From positions 1-29,137 of the IMG/VR virus record IMGVR_UViG_3300048582_000059: a DNA stretch of 29,137 bases; one strand, given 5' to 3'. The position numbers and the translations under genes are program-made. The first letter of the stretch is position 1, and each line of letters opens with the position of its first letter. The notes beneath the pieces were generated by a model. That model ran no database searches. It saw only the letters and a list, made by a program, of their open reading frames with translations, and was not told the origin of the DNA. The DNA comes from a virus. Shown in pieces: positions 3,233-29,137 of this stretch.

Positions 3233-3397
3233 ATGAACGACACCAACGCACAGCCGCAGGCAGGTCAGATCGCTCCGGGCGAAGAGGCCGGAAGCCGCCC
3301 CCAGGACACCCCGTACAACGGGTGGCAGCCGGGCGCTCACATCGGCTACCCCCTGAACGACTCCTTCTGGGTCGGAGCGCAGGCCGGTCGGTACTGA
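3233..3397 (+). CDS. Small unknown protein, 54 aa
   Basis: ATG 3233 opens a 54-codon frame ending in TGA at 3395-3397. A purine-rich GGGAAAGAGG ribosome site lies at 3213-3222. Codons are almost all G/C-ended, which supports coding. The peptide is polar, with Asn, Gln, Pro and Gly and several aromatic residues near its end (NGWQPGAHIGYP, then SFWVGAQAGRY). No domain is recognised. The next gene starts with GTG one base after its stop, so the two are probably translated together. Confidence 0.7.
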   Translation: MNDTNAQPQAGQIAPGEEAGSRPQDTPYNGWQPGAHIGYPLNDSFWVGAQAGRY

Positions 3398-3398
3398 C

Positions 3399-3983
3399 GT
3401 GGATCTCAGCCCTCAGTTCCAAGAGGCCAGCAGACGGCTGAGGGACCCCGAGATCAAGGGGTTCACGATGGACCAGCAGGGCAACTTCCTGGACAGCGGT
3501 TTCTCCGTCGGTGCCTATGCGGACAAGGAGCGCCGCCACCCCATCGAGGACACGGACGCCGCCGTCATCGGGGACTACCACGAGAACATCGGCCACCCGG
3601 ACCCGCTCGACACCACGGGCGGCTGGAACTCTGGTCAGCAGGGGGTGCTCGACGTCTCCCGGGTGTTCCCGGCCAGCCCACAAGGGCACGCCCAGTCACG
3701 ACGCCAGCAGATCCTCTCGGGGCAGGAGGCGTCGTACGTCCTCCACACCGACCAGGAGGAGTTCAACCCCTTCCACGAGGCCTCCATCGGCAGCCGCATC
3801 GCCGGAGCGCCCCCCACAGACGCCCAGAACCCGCACCCCTACCCGGAGTTCGTTCGAGCCGCCAAGGCGAACCCGAGAGCCGCTCTGGACCCCACCAAGA
3901 ACCCCGAGATCGCCGCCTGGGCCGACGGCCCTCTCGTCAGAGACCGCCGGAAGAAGCCAGACGCCGGTCAGACGCCCACCTGA
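3399..3983 (+). CDS. Unknown hydrophilic protein, 194 aa
   Basis: The frame begins with GTG 3399, one base after the previous stop. The codons from 3399 to the first internal ATG (3468, with an AAGGGG site upstream) are G/C-ended, so I keep the longer GTG form; ATG 3468 remains an alternative. The protein is polar, with Asp, Glu, His and Arg spread throughout and no membrane segment. The HPDPLDTTGGWNSGQQG region and the conserved-looking HTDQEEFNPFHEASIGSRIAG stretch do not match a family I know. Its 3' end overlaps by 47 bases the end of the opposite-strand gene at 3937-4125. Confidence 0.8.
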   Translation: MDLSPQFQEASRRLRDPEIKGFTMDQQGNFLDSGFSVGAYADKERRHPIEDTDAAVIGDYHENIGHPDPLDTTGGWNSGQQGVLDVSRVFPASPQGHAQSRRQQILSGQEASYVLHTDQEEFNPFHEASIGSRIAGAPPTDAQNPHPYPEFVRAAKANPRAALDPTKNPEIAAWADGPLVRDRRKKPDAGQTPT

Positions 3984-4125
3984 GGATCTCGTTCTCGGGA
4001 ACACCCAGGAGGCGCGAGACGACGCCCATCTCCTGCCGGGCGACAGGTACGTGACGGCAGCCGAGAGCCAGAGTGTCCAGGCGCTCCTGGACATCCTGCG
4101 GGAGAGATTCGAGAACAGCACTCAT
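3937..4125 (-). CDS. Putative small helix-turn-helix DNA-binding protein, opposite strand
   Basis: This 62-codon frame runs against all its neighbours and fills the only + strand gap of about 200 bases in the accessory block (3984-4187). Residues about 33-56 resemble the short winged-helix or helix-turn-helix of MerR/excisionase-type proteins: an E-x5-R first helix, then LLGVPENEILRWASDRRL, matching the usual pattern LLGV-x4-(I/V)-x-RW-x2-D-x-RL. The ATG (4125-4123) has no SD site but lies 8 bases after TATACT, a near-perfect -10 box on the same strand, as expected of a leaderless actinobacterial gene. Third positions are less G/C-rich (about 71%) than in the structural genes. The opposing + frame is open but has no start before GTG 4051. 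A regulator is inferred and unproven. Confidence 0.5.
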   Translation of the reverse strand: MSAVLESLPQDVQERLDTLALGCRHVPVARQEMGVVSRLLGVPENEILRWASDRRLASSGGL

Positions 4126-4133
4126 GGAGACGG

Positions 4134-4139
4134 AGTATA
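4134..4139 (-). promoter_or_regulatory. -10 box TATACT for the opposite-strand HTH gene
   Basis: Read on the minus strand, TATACT ends 8 bases before the ATG at 4125. It matches the bacterial TATAAT consensus at five of six positions, the best match among the boxes I saw. The -35 region is weak, as is common in actinobacteria. The box is within GTATAC, a palindrome, so a weaker TATACG box also faces the gene at 4188. Confidence 0.45.
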
Positions 4140-4187
4140 CGGTGGCCAGTCACCAGACACCAGGAAACACAGCGAGGGGCAGTGGCC

Positions 4188-5846
4188 ATGGCGGCGTCTG
4201 ACCACCTGAGTCCTGGCGTGTCCGGCCGGACACAAGCCGAGGCCGACTACGGCTCCGGCAGACGTGTCACGCCCCCACTGCTGCACGAGATGTCGCCGCA
4301 CAGCGAGCAGGTCGTGCGGGACGGGTTCGAGTCCGCCATGTCCGGGTGGAGGTCGCGAGAGGCCGAAATGCACGCCAAGGGTCTCGCCTCGGCACTCTCC
4401 CCCACTGTGATCGAGAGGCTCACGGACGCTCGTGTCGGCGTCCCTGAGGCGGCAGGCAACCTGGCCGGTGTGTGGGACCGGATGATGGACCACCCCGACC
4501 GCCCCGCCCCGGCGTGGTACTTCGGGCACAACCGTCGCCTGACGGCCGTCGCCGACAAGTACGGGATGCCGTCGGAGAAAGTGATCAACGCCTCTGCGGC
4601 CATGTCGCCGCAGAACGACCCCGACTCCGAGTACCGGGCGGCGTCAGCCATGACGGACGCCGTCGTGAACAAGCGCACCGTCCTCGACAAGAGGACAGGC
4701 AAGCGCCGCCGACTGACGTCCATGAAGCCGGACGAGGTGGCGGACATCACGTCCTCCGCCAACGTGAAGAACGTCTCCGCAGCCCCGGACTTCGACCTGG
4801 CCGGGTTCCGCAACGCCGGTACCAACCGAGTGGGCGGGTGGCGAACCCTGGCCGAGCCAGATCACGACGAGGTCGCCACCATGCAGTCGGCCAAGGTCCC
4901 CTTCTACGCCAAGTTGACATCGGAGTCGAAGGCAGACAGCCCGCTGCACCACGAGTACGAGGCCCGCTTCGGCGACCAGGTGGCGGCACGAGACGTTCGG
5001 AAGGGGCGCGAGGCGGACGCCGCCGCCGGTAAGACCGGCTCCGAGACCATTCGCGGCGTTCCCGACCGGGTGGACCTCTACGGCCTCATGGGCAAGGACG
5101 CAGCGGACGACGACCCCATCCACGACCACCACGTCCTCGGTCGTCGAGGAGGCTACGCCGTTCCGGACACGTGGATGTCTGCCATGCTCTCGGGCCAGGA
5201 CATGCGAGACATGCCCGGCAGCCCCTCCCCGGCGAAGATGGCCGGGTCGCAGACGAAGTCAACGTCCGCCCCCATTCCGGGCACGACGTTCCCCACCCCC
5301 GGCGAAGTCACGGGCGGCAAGCCTCTCACCGGCAACGCCGCCTGGGGCGTGGCTGCCGTGGGGGCGATCCAGGAGGCTGCCATCCGTGCGCGAGAGCCGG
5401 AGGCGCAGACCGACATCCCGCCCGTGATGATGCAGGAGATGACCTGGACCCACGGACGCCGGGAAGTCGCCGAGAGCACCCGAGCGGCCAACGAGGCCTC
5501 AGGCCGCAACCCAGGAGCAGCCGCCAACCGGGTGAAGAAACTCACCAGTGGTGATCTGGCTGGGCAGAAGGAGTTCCGACCGGCGACAGGTTCGAGGGAG
5601 CCGCAGCGGCTCGACACGCCGGGCCTGTTCCACAACGGAAACGACAACCCGCTCGACACCGACAGCGTGTCGCTGACCACCGCTGCTCCCACGAGAAGCA
5701 CTCTCCCCGGCGGCGGAACGACGATGGGCCGAGACCCGGCCCTGCACGGCTTCCACGATGCCGCCACGAGGGAGACCCCCTCCCTCGCCAAGCGTCGGGC
5801 CATCAAGGCGGCGATCGCCAGCACGAAGGACGAGCGGGGGTACTGA
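4188..5846 (+). CDS. Unknown protein with AMSPQND motif, 552 aa
   Basis: I start at ATG 4188 because GAGGGG at 4174-4179 lies 8 bases upstream; an in-frame GTG at 4182 is too close to that site. The N-terminal half (residues about 85-300) looks globular. It has WYFGHNRRLTAVADKYGMP followed by INASAAMSPQND (M139 to D144), a pattern I associate loosely with phage proteins of unknown function carrying an A(A/L/M)SPQ motif. The C-terminal half is low-complexity, rich in Pro, Thr, Gly and Arg, with no membrane segment or known catalytic motif. It may be a virion-carried or DNA-associated protein, but I cannot assign a function. The next gene starts one base after its stop. Confidence 0.85.
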   Translation: MAASDHLSPGVSGRTQAEADYGSGRRVTPPLLHEMSPHSEQVVRDGFESAMSGWRSREAEMHAKGLASALSPTVIERLTDARVGVPEAAGNLAGVWDRMMDHPDRPAPAWYFGHNRRLTAVADKYGMPSEKVINASAAMSPQNDPDSEYRAASAMTDAVVNKRTVLDKRTGKRRRLTSMKPDEVADITSSANVKNVSAAPDFDLAGFRNAGTNRVGGWRTLAEPDHDEVATMQSAKVPFYAKLTSESKADSPLHHEYEARFGDQVAARDVRKGREADAAAGKTGSETIRGVPDRVDLYGLMGKDAADDDPIHDHHVLGRRGGYAVPDTWMSAMLSGQDMRDMPGSPSPAKMAGSQTKSTSAPIPGTTFPTPGEVTGGKPLTGNAAWGVAAVGAIQEAAIRAREPEAQTDIPPVMMQEMTWTHGRREVAESTRAANEASGRNPGAAANRVKKLTSGDLAGQKEFRPATGSREPQRLDTPGLFHNGNDNPLDTDSVSLTTAAPTRSTLPGGGTTMGRDPALHGFHDAATRETPSLAKRRAIKAAIASTKDERGY

Positions 5847-6695: not shown

Positions 6696-8384
6696 ATGGC
6701 GTTGACGTTCTACCCACCCTCCGCCAGGGCGTCCTCCTCGGACCTCACCGTCGCCATCAGCCCCCTGGGCTTGACCGAACTGTCCGACGAGGAGTTCGAG
6801 GTCCACGGCCCCCGGATGACCCGGTACTCGACGCACGCCGCCTGGTACCTCGGTCATCACTGGGCCTACCGGCGCGAGGTCGGCGAGCCGCAGTTCGCCT
6901 TCAACTACACGAGGGCGTTGTCCGACTACATGGTCAACTTCTCCTTCGGCAAGGGCGTGCACTTCCGCACGCCGCAGGCGAACGCTGCTGTGATCCCCAC
7001 GGCGCTCAAGCGGGTGTGGGAGCAGGACAACTCGAAGGAGCGCCTGCTGTGGGAGATGGGCAACCTCGGCTCGGTGTACGGCGACGTCTTCGTCAAGGTC
7101 GCCTACGAGGACCCGTGGGTGGACCCCGCCGGTCGACTGCACAACGGCCGTGTCCGCATCATCCCGCTGAACCCGTCGTGGGTGTTCCCCGAGTGGCACC
7201 CGCACGATCGCTCACGCATGGTGCGGGTGAAGATCAAGTACCGCTTCTGGGGCACCGACCAGTCAGGCACGAGGACCGTGCACACGTACACGGAGATCCT
7301 CACCGAGGCGGAGATCCAGGAGTACGTCGACAACACCCTGCTCGACGCTCGCCCCAACCCGCTCGGCACCATCCCGGTGGTGCACATCCCCAACCTCCTC
7401 GTCCCCGGCAGCCCTTGGGGACTCAGCGACATCAGTGACGTCATCCCGCTGAACCGCGAGTACAACGAGAAGGCGCTCGAAGTCAGCGACATCGTCAACT
7501 ACTACTCCGCACCCGTGACGGTCATCGTCGGTGCGAAGGCGAGCAACCTGGAGCGTGGCGCACGCAAGACCTGGGCCATCCCGAACAAGGATGCCCGTGT
7601 CGAGAACCTCGCCGCCATCGACGACCTCGCTGGCCCCCTCGCCTACCTCCAGGTGGTGAAGAAGGGCATGCACGAGATGACCGGCGTGCCCGAGGGTGCG
7701 CTCGGACAGTCGCAGCCCATCAGCAACACCAGCGGCGTGGCACTGCACATCCAGTACCAGCCGTTGATGAACCGGGACCTCCAGAAGAAGATCACCTTCA
7801 CCCCGGGCCTCCAGAAGATCAACGAACTCGCCATCTTGACGCTCGCCCACCGTGAGCCGCAGATGCTCATGTGGGACCCGTACGAGTCCCCCGCCATGCC
7901 CAGCGGCTCGCTGCCGCAACTCGACCCGACGAACCCCAACACGTACGAGACGTCGGTCCACTGGCCCCCGCCCCTCCCCGTCGACCTCCTCGTCAAACTC
8001 AACGAGATCCAGACGAAGATGGCGCTGGGCCTGGAGTCGAAGCGTGGCGCTCTGCAAGATCTCGGGGAGGAGTTCCCCGACGCCAAGATGGCGGAGATCT
8101 TCGCCGAACTGGTCGTCGACCGCAAGGATCAGGGTGCGCTCGACCTCGTGTCGGCCACGATCCAGGCGGCGATCATGGCGGAGACAGGAATGACGCCGGA
8201 CGGCGCTCCGGCGAGTAGTGTCAACTCTGCGGGTGGTAGTGACGTATCATCCCCAGAAGCGGGAGGTCCCCTCCCAGGTGCTGTTGTCCCGGGTGGACCC
8301 GTCGACAACATGGTGAACGAGATTGTGACACGTGCGTTCGGTGGTCGACTGGCCCAGAACCGCAACCCTGAGAACGACGTTTAG
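6696..8384 (+). CDS. Portal protein
   Basis: The 562-residue protein is of portal length and sits between terminase and scaffold/capsid, where the portal belongs. Its sequence has typical portal features: an N-terminal clip/wing region with FNYTRALSDYMVNFSFGKGV, a central GTIPVVHIPN segment, then SPWGLSDISDVIPLNREYNE, and a helical stem/crown with EMTGVPEGALGQ and SNTSGVALHIQY. It forms the dodecameric DNA channel at one vertex, the docking site for terminase and later for the neck. The last 60 residues are Gly/Pro/Ser-rich and probably flexible. ATG 6696 follows AAGGA by 10 bases; a short peptide frame overlaps the start. Confidence 0.93.
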   Translation: MALTFYPPSARASSSDLTVAISPLGLTELSDEEFEVHGPRMTRYSTHAAWYLGHHWAYRREVGEPQFAFNYTRALSDYMVNFSFGKGVHFRTPQANAAVIPTALKRVWEQDNSKERLLWEMGNLGSVYGDVFVKVAYEDPWVDPAGRLHNGRVRIIPLNPSWVFPEWHPHDRSRMVRVKIKYRFWGTDQSGTRTVHTYTEILTEAEIQEYVDNTLLDARPNPLGTIPVVHIPNLLVPGSPWGLSDISDVIPLNREYNEKALEVSDIVNYYSAPVTVIVGAKASNLERGARKTWAIPNKDARVENLAAIDDLAGPLAYLQVVKKGMHEMTGVPEGALGQSQPISNTSGVALHIQYQPLMNRDLQKKITFTPGLQKINELAILTLAHREPQMLMWDPYESPAMPSGSLPQLDPTNPNTYETSVHWPPPLPVDLLVKLNEIQTKMALGLESKRGALQDLGEEFPDAKMAEIFAELVVDRKDQGALDLVSATIQAAIMAETGMTPDGAPASSVNSAGGSDVSSPEAGGPLPGAVVPGGPVDNMVNEIVTRAFGGRLAQNRNPENDV

Positions 8385-11522: not shown

Positions 11523-11528
11523 TAGTCT
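11523..11528 (+). promoter_or_regulatory. -10-like box TAGTCT before the gene at 11535 (leaderless-type)
   Basis: TAGTCT ends 6 bases before ATG 11535 and no SD site intervenes. It is the same hexamer as before the terminase gene. A TCTGAC element lies 16 bases upstream (11501-11506) and may act as a weak -35 site. Confidence 0.4.
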
Positions 11529-11534
11529 GAGGCC

Positions 11535-11744
11535 ATGTCGGACGTAGGAGATCCCGAGGTCGAGCCGGAGCCGGAGGTCGTCGTCGAGCCGAACCCTGAG
11601 AAGGTGCTCCTGGACCTCCGCTCGGAGTATCTGCGGCCCACGAGCGACAACACCGACCCCGTGACCGGCCTGCCTCGATACACGGGGTACCCGCAGCGCA
11701 TGGTCTCCGGTGAGATCGTTGGCACCCTGATGGAGTGGGAGTAG
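11535..11744 (+). CDS. Small acidic unknown protein, 69 aa
   Basis: The first 24 residues are an acidic Glu/Pro/Val repeat (EPEPEVVVEPNPE). The rest is short and polar, with YLRPTSDNTDPVTGLPRYTGYP. Codons are G/C-ended. ATG 11535 has no SD site but follows TAGTCT by 6 bases, so initiation may be leaderless. The next gene starts 3 bases after the stop. I recognise no family; a small neck-region protein is possible. Confidence 0.7.
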   Translation: MSDVGDPEVEPEPEVVVEPNPEKVLLDLRSEYLRPTSDNTDPVTGLPRYTGYPQRMVSGEIVGTLMEWE

Positions 11745-14242: not shown

Positions 14243-14605
14243 ATGGCCACCCAGCCGTTGTTCGGGGAAGCGTTCATCATGGACGTGTGCCTCGGAACAG
14301 TCGATGACGATGTCGCCGCCCGCATTCGGCGTGCGGCAGAGGCTGTGGGGGAAGACCTGTCGTTGGCGGTCACCGAGGCCATGGGGCGGGACTCGGAGAT
14401 GGCCGACTTCGCACAGTACGTGCAGGTGACCGCCGAAGATGGGGAACTGGTCGTGACTCTCCCCGAGGAGGTGGTCGACGAAGTGCTCGATCGCGAGTTC
14501 GGGGATGTCGACACGCCGCCCACGCCCGTCATCCGCTCCGCCGTGCGCCGGTCCCTGCTTCGCAGCCGGACGGTGTTCGACAGCGTCGTTCGAGGGGGTG
14601 AGTGA
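14243..14605 (+). CDS. Unknown neck/tail-completion region protein, 120 aa
   Basis: ATG 14243 follows CGGAG by 5 bases. Residues 15-45 are helical (VAARIRRAAEAVGEDLSLAV). They are followed by a short beta segment (YVQVTAEDGELVVTLP) and a helical C-terminus with basic residues (RSAVRRSLLRSRTVFDSV). The stop overlaps the start of the next gene, giving coupled translation. Proteins of this size just before the tail terminator gene are often neck or tail-completion proteins; the family is not recognised. Confidence 0.72.
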   Translation: MATQPLFGEAFIMDVCLGTVDDDVAARIRRAAEAVGEDLSLAVTEAMGRDSEMADFAQYVQVTAEDGELVVTLPEEVVDEVLDREFGDVDTPPTPVIRSAVRRSLLRSRTVFDSVVRGGE

Positions 14606-15285
14606 TGCCCGCCGTCGGGTTCCTGCTCGCCGAGGAGGAGGCCATGAAGGCCAAGTTCTCCGGCCTCACGCTTGCCGCCCCTCGCAAGGAGGACGGACAG
14701 GTCAAGGTCAAGGTGTGGTACCGGGGTGCCTCGCCCGAGCGCATCACCGAGTACCCGAACATCCTGATCGACCTCGTGGACATCGTCCCCGCCCTCGATC
14801 GAGCGCATTCGCAGGAGTACGTCAACTTCGACTACTGGCCCTCCTCGGCATCGACCAAGGCGGAGGCTCTGGAGTTCTTGGGCATGGACCCGCTGGGGGA
14901 AAGCGAGAGCGTTCTCGCAATGCGCTTCTTCCCGGTGGACCTGATCTTCCAGGTGGCCACCCGCACCCGCACCAAACTCCACGACGCCGCCCTGAGGGCG
15001 AAGATCATCACACAGATCGCCCCCTTCCGGTTCGGGTACCTCAACATCCCGGCCGACGGGTCCACCCGCCACCTCGACCTGCGCGGCTGGTCCTCGTCCA
15101 CCGACAACGAAGGGACCTCGGGCAAGTCCACCATCGTATTCACCACGCTGTACGAAATCTCCGTCACGGCCGAGATCCCGTTGGGCCTCCCCGAGGTCTA
15201 CGAACGTGTCCAGCAGATCCTCATCTCACTCGGTATCGAGGGGGATGCAGACACCGAGGACTTCGTCCTCAGCCCCACCCCCTGA
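14605..15285 (+). CDS. Probable tail terminator/completion protein, 226 aa
   Basis: I start at ATG 14605, which overlaps the previous stop and has GAGGGGG 6 bases upstream; ATG 14644 with GAGGAGGAGG is a strong alternative. The protein has mixed strands and helices: KVKVWYRGASPERITEYPNI, then LIDLVDIVPALDRAHSQEYV, RFFPVDLIFQVATRTRTKLH and TLYEISVTAEIPLG. The pattern and its position directly before the sheath fit a tail terminator, which caps the sheath and tube. I recognise no exact homologue. No nuclease or protease motif is present. Confidence 0.8.
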   Translation: MPAVGFLLAEEEAMKAKFSGLTLAAPRKEDGQVKVKVWYRGASPERITEYPNILIDLVDIVPALDRAHSQEYVNFDYWPSSASTKAEALEFLGMDPLGESESVLAMRFFPVDLIFQVATRTRTKLHDAALRAKIITQIAPFRFGYLNIPADGSTRHLDLRGWSSSTDNEGTSGKSTIVFTTLYEISVTAEIPLGLPEVYERVQQILISLGIEGDADTEDFVLSPTP

Positions 15286-15312
15286 TACCGCCCACTCCAG
15301 AGGAGAAACACC

Positions 15313-16875
15313 ATGCCCTTCCCCAGCGTTCAGTTCAGCGAGCAGGACTCGCAGTCCCCCGCAGCCGACCTCTTCCAGGCCAACCCCTCGGCGATCGGCG
15401 GCTTCGTCGGCCCGAGCGACCAGGGTCCTGTCGTCCCGACCGTGGTGTCCTCCTGGGCGCAGTTCGTGTCGGCGTACGGCCGCAACTACACCAGCCTCCA
15501 CTACGCCGTGTCGGACTTCTTCAACAACGGTGGTTCGCAGGCGCTGGTCACTCGCCTCCCCGGTGCTGACGCCGAGGCAGCCACGGTCGACATCGAGGCC
15601 GTCGGTGCCGAAGTTTCCGACCCTCCGATCTTCACGGTGACGGCGTTGTCGCCAGGCACGTGGGGCAACAACCTCCACGTCGTGGTGTACCCGCGAGACG
15701 CCACGGCGGGTCGTTTCGACATCGCCCTGTTCAACGTCCCGGCGGGCATCACCCTCGACGTCGCAGCCGGTGGCCAGTACCGACTGGAGCGTTGGAACGA
15801 CCTGTCGTTGTCGGCGAGCGACCCTCGCTACGTGTACGACATCGTCAACGCCCCGTCCTCCGCCGGGAGCCGCTACATCTCGATCTCCGGCCTCTCGCAG
15901 GCCCCAGGCGGGGACCTGTACCCGGTGACTGCGGCGGACAACGCCCTGGTCGATGGCTCGAACGGTACGTACGCCGCTCCGGATTTCGTGGCGGAGACTG
16001 CGTACACCTCCGCCGTGACGGCCATGCTGGCCACCGACCAGTCCCTCGTGATCAACCTCCCGGGCATCACCGACCCTGACACGATCGAGGCGGTCGTGTC
16101 GGCCGCTGCTGAGAAGGGCACCTCGTTCGTCGTCATCGACCCTCCGCTCGGTGACACGGCCAGCGAGTTGGCGGACTACCCCGGAGATCTCGGCCTCACC
16201 GCCCTGACCCCGCAGCAGCAGTCGTATGCGGGCGTCTGGGCACCCGCTCTGTACCTCCCCTCCCTGACCGGTGCCTCCGGGCGCACTGTTCTTCGTGGTC
16301 CGGGCGGGGCGGTGGTCGGCCTGATGCTGGCCGTGGATTCGAGCGTGGGCGTGTGGCGTGCCCCGGCCGGTACCCGCTTCCCCATCCGGGGTGCCTCCCA
16401 GGTGGAGACAGAGTTCACCGACGCCGAGTTGAGCCTCCTCAACGACTCCCACGTGAACGTCATCCGCCCCATCCGTGGCTACGGCATCGTCCCCATGGGC
16501 GCTCGGACCGTGAAGCGCTACGGCCAGGATCGCTACGTCAACAACCGGCGCAACATGATCTACATCAGGGAGTCCCTGATGAACGTCATCTTCCCGCTGA
16601 CCTTCGAGCCGAACGACAACCGCTTGTGGAACTCCATCCACACGGCCTGCGACCGCTTCCTGATGGGCCACTGGCAGCGCGGTGGACTCAAGGGCGGCAC
16701 TGCCCGAGAGGCGTACCGGCTGGTCTGCGACAGCACCAACAACCCGCCCCAGACGGCCGAGGCCGGAGAAGTCAACGTCACCATTGCCGTGGCTGTGTCC
16801 GCTCCTGCCGAGTTCATCAACATCAACCTCTCGTTCGCTGCGGGAGAGTTGGTGTCCTCGTCCATCGAGTCCTGA
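15313..16875 (+). CDS. Tail sheath protein
   Basis: This 520-residue protein is of sheath length and has the classic N-terminal pattern: IGGFVGPSDQGPVVPTVVSS, then WAQFVSAYG, HYAVSDFFNNGG and ALVTRL. The middle has DPDTIEAVVSAAAEKGTSFV and the C-terminal part has FPIRGASQVET and RGYGIVPMGARTVK followed by INNRRN-like VNNRRNMIYIRESL. These are typical of contractile sheaths, in which subunits interlock and contract to drive the tube through the cell wall. ATG 15313 has GAGGAGA upstream. It fixes the phage as a contractile-tailed (myovirus-type) phage. Confidence 0.97.
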   Translation: MPFPSVQFSEQDSQSPAADLFQANPSAIGGFVGPSDQGPVVPTVVSSWAQFVSAYGRNYTSLHYAVSDFFNNGGSQALVTRLPGADAEAATVDIEAVGAEVSDPPIFTVTALSPGTWGNNLHVVVYPRDATAGRFDIALFNVPAGITLDVAAGGQYRLERWNDLSLSASDPRYVYDIVNAPSSAGSRYISISGLSQAPGGDLYPVTAADNALVDGSNGTYAAPDFVAETAYTSAVTAMLATDQSLVINLPGITDPDTIEAVVSAAAEKGTSFVVIDPPLGDTASELADYPGDLGLTALTPQQQSYAGVWAPALYLPSLTGASGRTVLRGPGGAVVGLMLAVDSSVGVWRAPAGTRFPIRGASQVETEFTDAELSLLNDSHVNVIRPIRGYGIVPMGARTVKRYGQDRYVNNRRNMIYIRESLMNVIFPLTFEPNDNRLWNSIHTACDRFLMGHWQRGGLKGGTAREAYRLVCDSTNNPPQTAEAGEVNVTIAVAVSAPAEFININLSFAAGELVSSSIES

Positions 16876-28818: not shown

Positions 28819-28824
28819 TACCAT
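28819..28824 (+). promoter_or_regulatory. -10-like box TACCAT before the last gene
   Basis: TACCAT ends 6 bases before ATG 28831, with no clear SD site in the 27-base gap. This is the same layout as before 1707 and 11535. The box matches poorly outside TA...T, so confidence is low. Confidence 0.25.
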
Positions 28825-28830
28825 GGGGCC

Positions 28831-29137
28831 ATGTCCTCAGCGCAGGGTGGTCTCCATGGTTGGTTGTGGGCGTACTGGCCCTCGGCCGACATCTACCAGA
28901 CCGAGCCGAAGTGGAGAGAGCGCTACGTCGCCCTCGGGCACGCCCTGACGGACGCCGACGAGATCTCGACCACCTCGAACCTCGTGATCCCCTACGGCCG
29001 AGATTGGGGGGCCACCCTCACCCTCGTGGACAAGGGCGACGACCTGGAGGACGAGGACGACGACACCGTGCCCACCGGGTACCTGCGGTCCGAGTCCCGC
29101 ATCTGGCGCTCGTGGGGGTTCGCCCAGCGTCTCCCCT
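28831..29137 (+). CDS. Unknown protein, N-terminal part only (runs off the window)
   Basis: ATG 28831 opens a frame that stays open to the end of the window (102 codons visible). The N-terminus is Trp-rich (LHGWLWAYWPSADIYQTEP), followed by polar, acidic sequence (VDKGDDLEDEDDDTVP) and a YLRSESRIWRSWGFAQRL stretch. Codons are G/C-ended. No signal peptide or known domain is clear; the rest of the gene is outside this window, so no function is proposed. Confidence 0.75.
   Translation, partial: MSSAQGGLHGWLWAYWPSADIYQTEPKWRERYVALGHALTDADEISTTSNLVIPYGRDWGATLTLVDKGDDLEDEDDDTVPTGYLRSESRIWRSWGFAQRLP

Follow-up and report, generated by a model that had tools for sequence, protein, structure and literature searches.

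Leaderless genes are numerous in M. tuberculosis (PMC3898074), where it is common for a TANNNT box to be centred 7-12 nt upstream of the start site, with no -35 motif (PMC3898074). Two further points of reference come from phages: the moron concept (Hendrix et al., 2000; Juhala et al., 2000, both as cited in PMC11087260) and the noncontiguous operons using antisense transcription that have been shown in the S. aureus phage 80alpha (PMC11087260). The locus considered here is a 62-codon open reading frame, m3937, lying on the opposite strand in the late region of an uncultured actinobacterial phage, and it can be compared with all three. The reading we favour, with moderate confidence, is that m3937 is a genuine moron-like accessory gene, separately expressed from a leaderless start and yielding a wingless helix-turn-helix (HTH) protein that probably binds DNA.

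The opposite-strand frame and its late-gene setting

The window, by which we mean the whole stretch of DNA analysed, is IMG/VR virus record IMGVR_UViG_3300048582_000059 (29,137 bases, GC 65.6%). Its portal is ~51-56% identical to those of the Streptomyces phages BRock, Alone3, pSt2308 and GiJojo and ~60-62% identical to portals from many uncultured viruses. All genes taken as real around m3937 run on the + strand (Table 1), leaving a + strand gap of 204 nt between the g3399 stop and the ATG of g4188; the start of the latter gene is listed as GTG 4182, but its best start is ATG 4188, with GAGG 7 nt upstream. No relatives of g4188 were found in the genome contig collection, and no reading frame scores as coding in the divergent stretch that separates it from m3937. 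An earlier note on this DNA had placed a complete 62-codon minus-strand frame in the gap, antisense to the end of g3399 and preceded by TATACT 8 nt before its ATG, and each of these elements is borne out at the positions given in Table 1. The predicted product (6.8 kDa, one Cys) is slightly acidic, with a pI of 5.7, and the base composition of the frame is like that of the rest of the phage.

Table 1. Positions of the features discussed, in window coordinates.
Feature	Positions	Strand	Remark
terL	84-1697
g3233	3233..3397	+	small gene just before g3399
g3399	3399..3983	+	divergent late-gene family; precedes the slot in relatives
m3937	3937..4125	-	62-aa ORF; ATG at 4125, stop 3937-3939
m3937/g3399 convergent overlap	3937..3983		47 nt, at the g3399 end
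HTH helix pair of m3937	3949..4047	-	residues 27-59: helices 27-40 and 44-59, turn 41-43
m3937/g4188 divergent intergenic stretch	4126..4187		62 nt; candidate promoter region and g4188 RBS
TATACT, candidate -10 box	4134..4139	-	8 nt before the m3937 ATG
g4188	4188..5846	+	next late gene; homologues in L082-L089
Portal gene	6696-8384

Other frames in the window and its relatives may be recorded here. After terL lies g1707 (1707-2123), whose 138-aa product weakly matches RNA ligases among the PHROGs (E 0.013 at best) and which has a homologue in L086. A 354-aa + strand ORF at 14505-15569 has a GC content by codon position of 0.86/0.63/0.48, which suggests a real gene in another frame. Two more minus-strand ORFs of gene-like composition (164 and 306 aa) occur at 1709-3120 of L082, between terL and the g2195 homologue. 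The cultured Streptomyces phages Alone3 (L090, 4713-4958) and pSt2308 (L092, 4024-4275) each carry a lone opposite-strand membrane-protein gene just before the terminase, a further late-region site with a gene on the opposite strand.

Start region and coding evidence

No TATANT other than the TATACT upstream of m3937 occurs in the 29 kb window. Across the window an ATG lies 6-8 nt after a TANNNT nine times, against ~1.2 expected from a background of ~0.4 per offset taken at more distant offsets. Those that open long frames belong to terL (84), g1707, the frames at 11535 and 28831, and m3937; the first four are of the form TANNNT-N6/7-ATG (71-86, 1695-1709, 11523-11537 and 28819-28833), and several genes of this phage, terL included, may on this pattern be leaderless. 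No Shine-Dalgarno sequence was found upstream of the m3937 ATG, and the TANNNT box has its centre 7-12 nt upstream of the start codon, with neither a -35 consensus nor a sigma-70 consensus pair upstream. The enrichment of this spacing and the M. tuberculosis precedent therefore make a leaderless start of m3937 credible, and the prediction in the earlier note of such a start agrees with the TATACT-N8-ATG arrangement. No terminator for m3937 was found by T-tract consensus, although GC-rich phages may use other kinds.

Since the window, at 65.6% GC, contains 57 ATG-initiated ORFs with 62 or more codons on its minus strand, an ORF of this size is by itself no evidence for a gene. Over 3984-4125 the GC content by codon position in the m3937 register is 0.81/0.38/0.72, low at the middle position; the composition is thus gene-like in register, and it does not settle the strand. 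Codon usage slightly prefers the codon-aligned + frame, by ~5:1 (0.28 vs 0.20 bits per codon, with a likelihood ratio for the minus frame of 0.18), and a strand difference of this kind is untypical for genes of this phage in either direction. It is the predicted fold that points to the minus strand. Single-sequence AlphaFold2 models the m3937 product with a pLDDT of 90.7 and a pTM of 0.74, as against 57.6 and 0.28 for the codon-aligned + product, a contrast that is strong but uncalibrated because there is only this one control fold.

These results bear on whether m3937 could be the mirror shadow of + strand coding, either by a small + gene or by a +1-frameshifted extension of g3399 reaching 4209. 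The + frame stays open between 3511 and 4209 and has the higher codon score. Its product nevertheless lacks a confident fold and any homologue at the site; past the g3399 stop, the first start codon of the frame, GTG 4051, has no clear Shine-Dalgarno sequence; and in L082 and L088 the g3399-type proteins are of about the same length as that of g3399, with no such extension. The relatives' protein lengths and the poor fold led us to reject the frameshifted extension, and we regard coding on the + strand as a whole as very unlikely to account for m3937.

Searches for homologues of m3937 gave nothing by tblastn against phages and plasmids, in the viral contig and genome contig collections, or in 36 related records, none of which encodes it; PADLOC and PHROGs likewise returned no match. 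A weak match in the L086 record (E 0.09) was rejected, as it crosses a stop codon on one strand and is antisense to another frame, and so were an NCBIfam glutamate racemase match (E 0.014) and matches to leucine-rich designs in the PDB, all short local resemblances.

Occupants of the site behind g3399-type genes

Profile searches recovered g3399-type genes in 31 records, window included, and in 29 of these the gene directly precedes a portal or g4188-type gene; the other two (L059 and L065) were set aside, having a gap of similar size with a small + gene next after the g3399-type gene. The g3399-family alignment is too divergent for a scan of the collections. The following gap measures 13-86 nt in 20 of the 29 loci and 204-751 nt in nine. 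All nine long gaps (window included), but none of the 20 short ones, contain an opposite-strand ORF that extends over the end of the g3399-type gene. Because several of the loci are near-identical, the nine represent about five distinct occupants, that of the window included, and the eight relatives about four. In this phage group, a long gap behind a g3399-type gene is a reliable sign of opposite-strand genes, which annotation could miss.

One occupant, type A (L017, L033 and L067; L021 and L023 carry a variant), spans 66-67 codons from stop to stop, has a Shine-Dalgarno sequence and encodes a CxxC...CxxH motif; it is also present in L027, whose g3399-type gene was not recovered. Between the type A copies of L096 and L099, pS is 0.26 and pN 0.03; of the 16 changes, 12 fall at third positions, and all three frames of the opposite strand contain stops. 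L032 encodes another small C2-CH protein. The occupants of L082 and L088 (263 and 179 aa; 52% identical over 161 residues; pS 0.55, pN 0.28) both begin at TAGATT-N6-ATG. In relatives the occupants are evolving as proteins of the minus strand: close copies differ mainly by synonymous changes. Most are of a putative zinc-binding type. Some relatives lack such a gene: L083 and L084 have none at the site, and in L086, where the g3233 homologue is followed directly by that of g4188, neither g3399 nor an opposite-strand gene is found there.

Like m3937, the C2-CH genes of L017, L021, L032, L033, L067, L082 and L088 occupy this slot on this strand, overlap the end of the g3399-type gene and are separated from the next late gene by a short divergent spacer, and those of L082 and L088 share its leaderless-type start. 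They differ from it in their CxxC...CxxH products, a motif absent from m3937, and, for type A, in the Shine-Dalgarno sequence; m3937 does not align with the L088 protein and is unrelated in sequence to the other occupants. That no gene had been described at such a place, as the earlier note supposed, holds for the open-access papers searched, which contain no description of the slot, but the site itself is used in eight related loci. In a separate observation, the portal gene of L017, L021, L033 and L067 is preceded by a conserved minus-strand sequence, TGTATAAATTGTAGCC. L014, where no opposite-strand gene is present, has this sequence too, and it may serve as a promoter element for one strand or the other.

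The slot also bears on the possibility that neither strand codes, the gap being a promoter or spacer and the ORF a chance product of high GC. The 57 similar minus-strand ORFs, the lack of homologues and the untypical codon usage would all fit this; set against them are the confident single-sequence fold, the low GC of the middle codon position and the occupation of the slot in every relative with a long gap, and we consider it unlikely. Taken together, the fold, the opposite-strand genes recurring in relatives and the box-to-ATG spacing enrichment place the ORF beyond chance. We conclude that m3937 is likely a real gene and, as the earlier note had proposed as one option, is predicted to be expressed separately from the late genes. 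A less probable extension is that the lineage keeps a dedicated opposite-strand slot for interchangeable small regulators that bind nucleic acid (zinc-binding proteins in relatives, an HTH protein in the window), which would be transcribed against the late genes, partly from leaderless promoters, and would tune late or host transcription.

Predicted product and comparison with described systems

The structure prediction proposed in the earlier note yields a confident HTH-type fold for this orphan 62-residue protein. The model consists of four helices (residues 3-6, 10-22, 27-40 and 44-59) with no wing strands, and the chain stops 3 residues past the last helix. The helix pair LLGVPENEILRWASDRRL had been likened to those of MerR/excisionase proteins, winged HTH proteins represented by Pfam HTH_17. 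An HTH-type pair is indeed present in the model, but membership of that family is rejected because residues 36-58 score only 13 bits, far below the curated cut-off of 27 bits, and no beta wing follows the recognition helix. The nearest solved folds are homeodomains, IS3-OrfA-like proteins and the TnpE HTH, with Z ~5 at best, values that are tied with unrelated helical chains, the arrangement being a common one; Foldseek gave weak matches (E ~1) and none at E <=0.001 against the PDB and BFVD. On the model, m3937 is probably a small wingless HTH protein that binds DNA, and a small DNA-binding regulator would be its most economical reading, against which the weak fold matches and the slightly acidic pI count.

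According to this reading, m3937 would sit opposite the packaging and head genes as a small accessory gene, in a recurrent slot that in relatives holds other opposite-strand genes, mostly C2-CH. Its transcription from TATACT would probably be carried out by the RNA polymerase of the host, with a housekeeping-type sigma factor, giving a leaderless mRNA from ATG 4125 independently of late transcription. The HTH product would then bind DNA and regulate phage or host promoters, with late promoters of the phage, promoters of the host or that of m3937 itself as potential targets. We infer transcription, leaderless translation, DNA binding and regulatory role alike. If correct, the regulator reading would provide a small control element open to experiment, one that acts on late transcription or against it, in a genome that points to leaderless starts, terL included.

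A different emphasis would make the gene or its transcript chiefly an antisense control of g3399, the protein being secondary or acting on RNA. The convergent overlap, the lack of a detected terminator, the slightly acidic product and the 80alpha precedent (PMC11087260) are compatible with this, and by analogy the overlap might affect g3399. An overlap as short as 47 nt is, however, no positive evidence, in relatives it is as proteins that the occupants are conserved, and the HTH-type architecture favours DNA, so that a chiefly antisense role appears distinctly improbable. The tha-1/ith-1 noncontiguous operon of 80alpha (PMC11087260) resembles the proposed m3937 gene in having a small gene opposite an operon under its own promoter, for m3937 a candidate one; there the gene lies in the cI-controlled region, whereas m3937 has its 47-nt overlap in the packaging/head region.

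With the leaderless TANNNT genes of actinobacteria, as described in M. tuberculosis (PMC3898074), m3937 shares a -10 type box centred 7-12 nt upstream and the lack of both a -35 motif and a Shine-Dalgarno sequence, although the start of m3937, unlike those of M. tuberculosis, is a prediction. It differs from phage morons in its lack of a detected terminator, its phage-like base composition and its orphan HTH-type product. As with morons, it is a small extra gene inserted between late genes that in relatives lie next to each other (20 loci with a gap of 13-86 nt), and it has an apparent promoter of its own, with TATACT-N8-ATG and the TANNNT enrichment but no sigma-70 consensus pair. On this comparison m3937 likely works like a moron.
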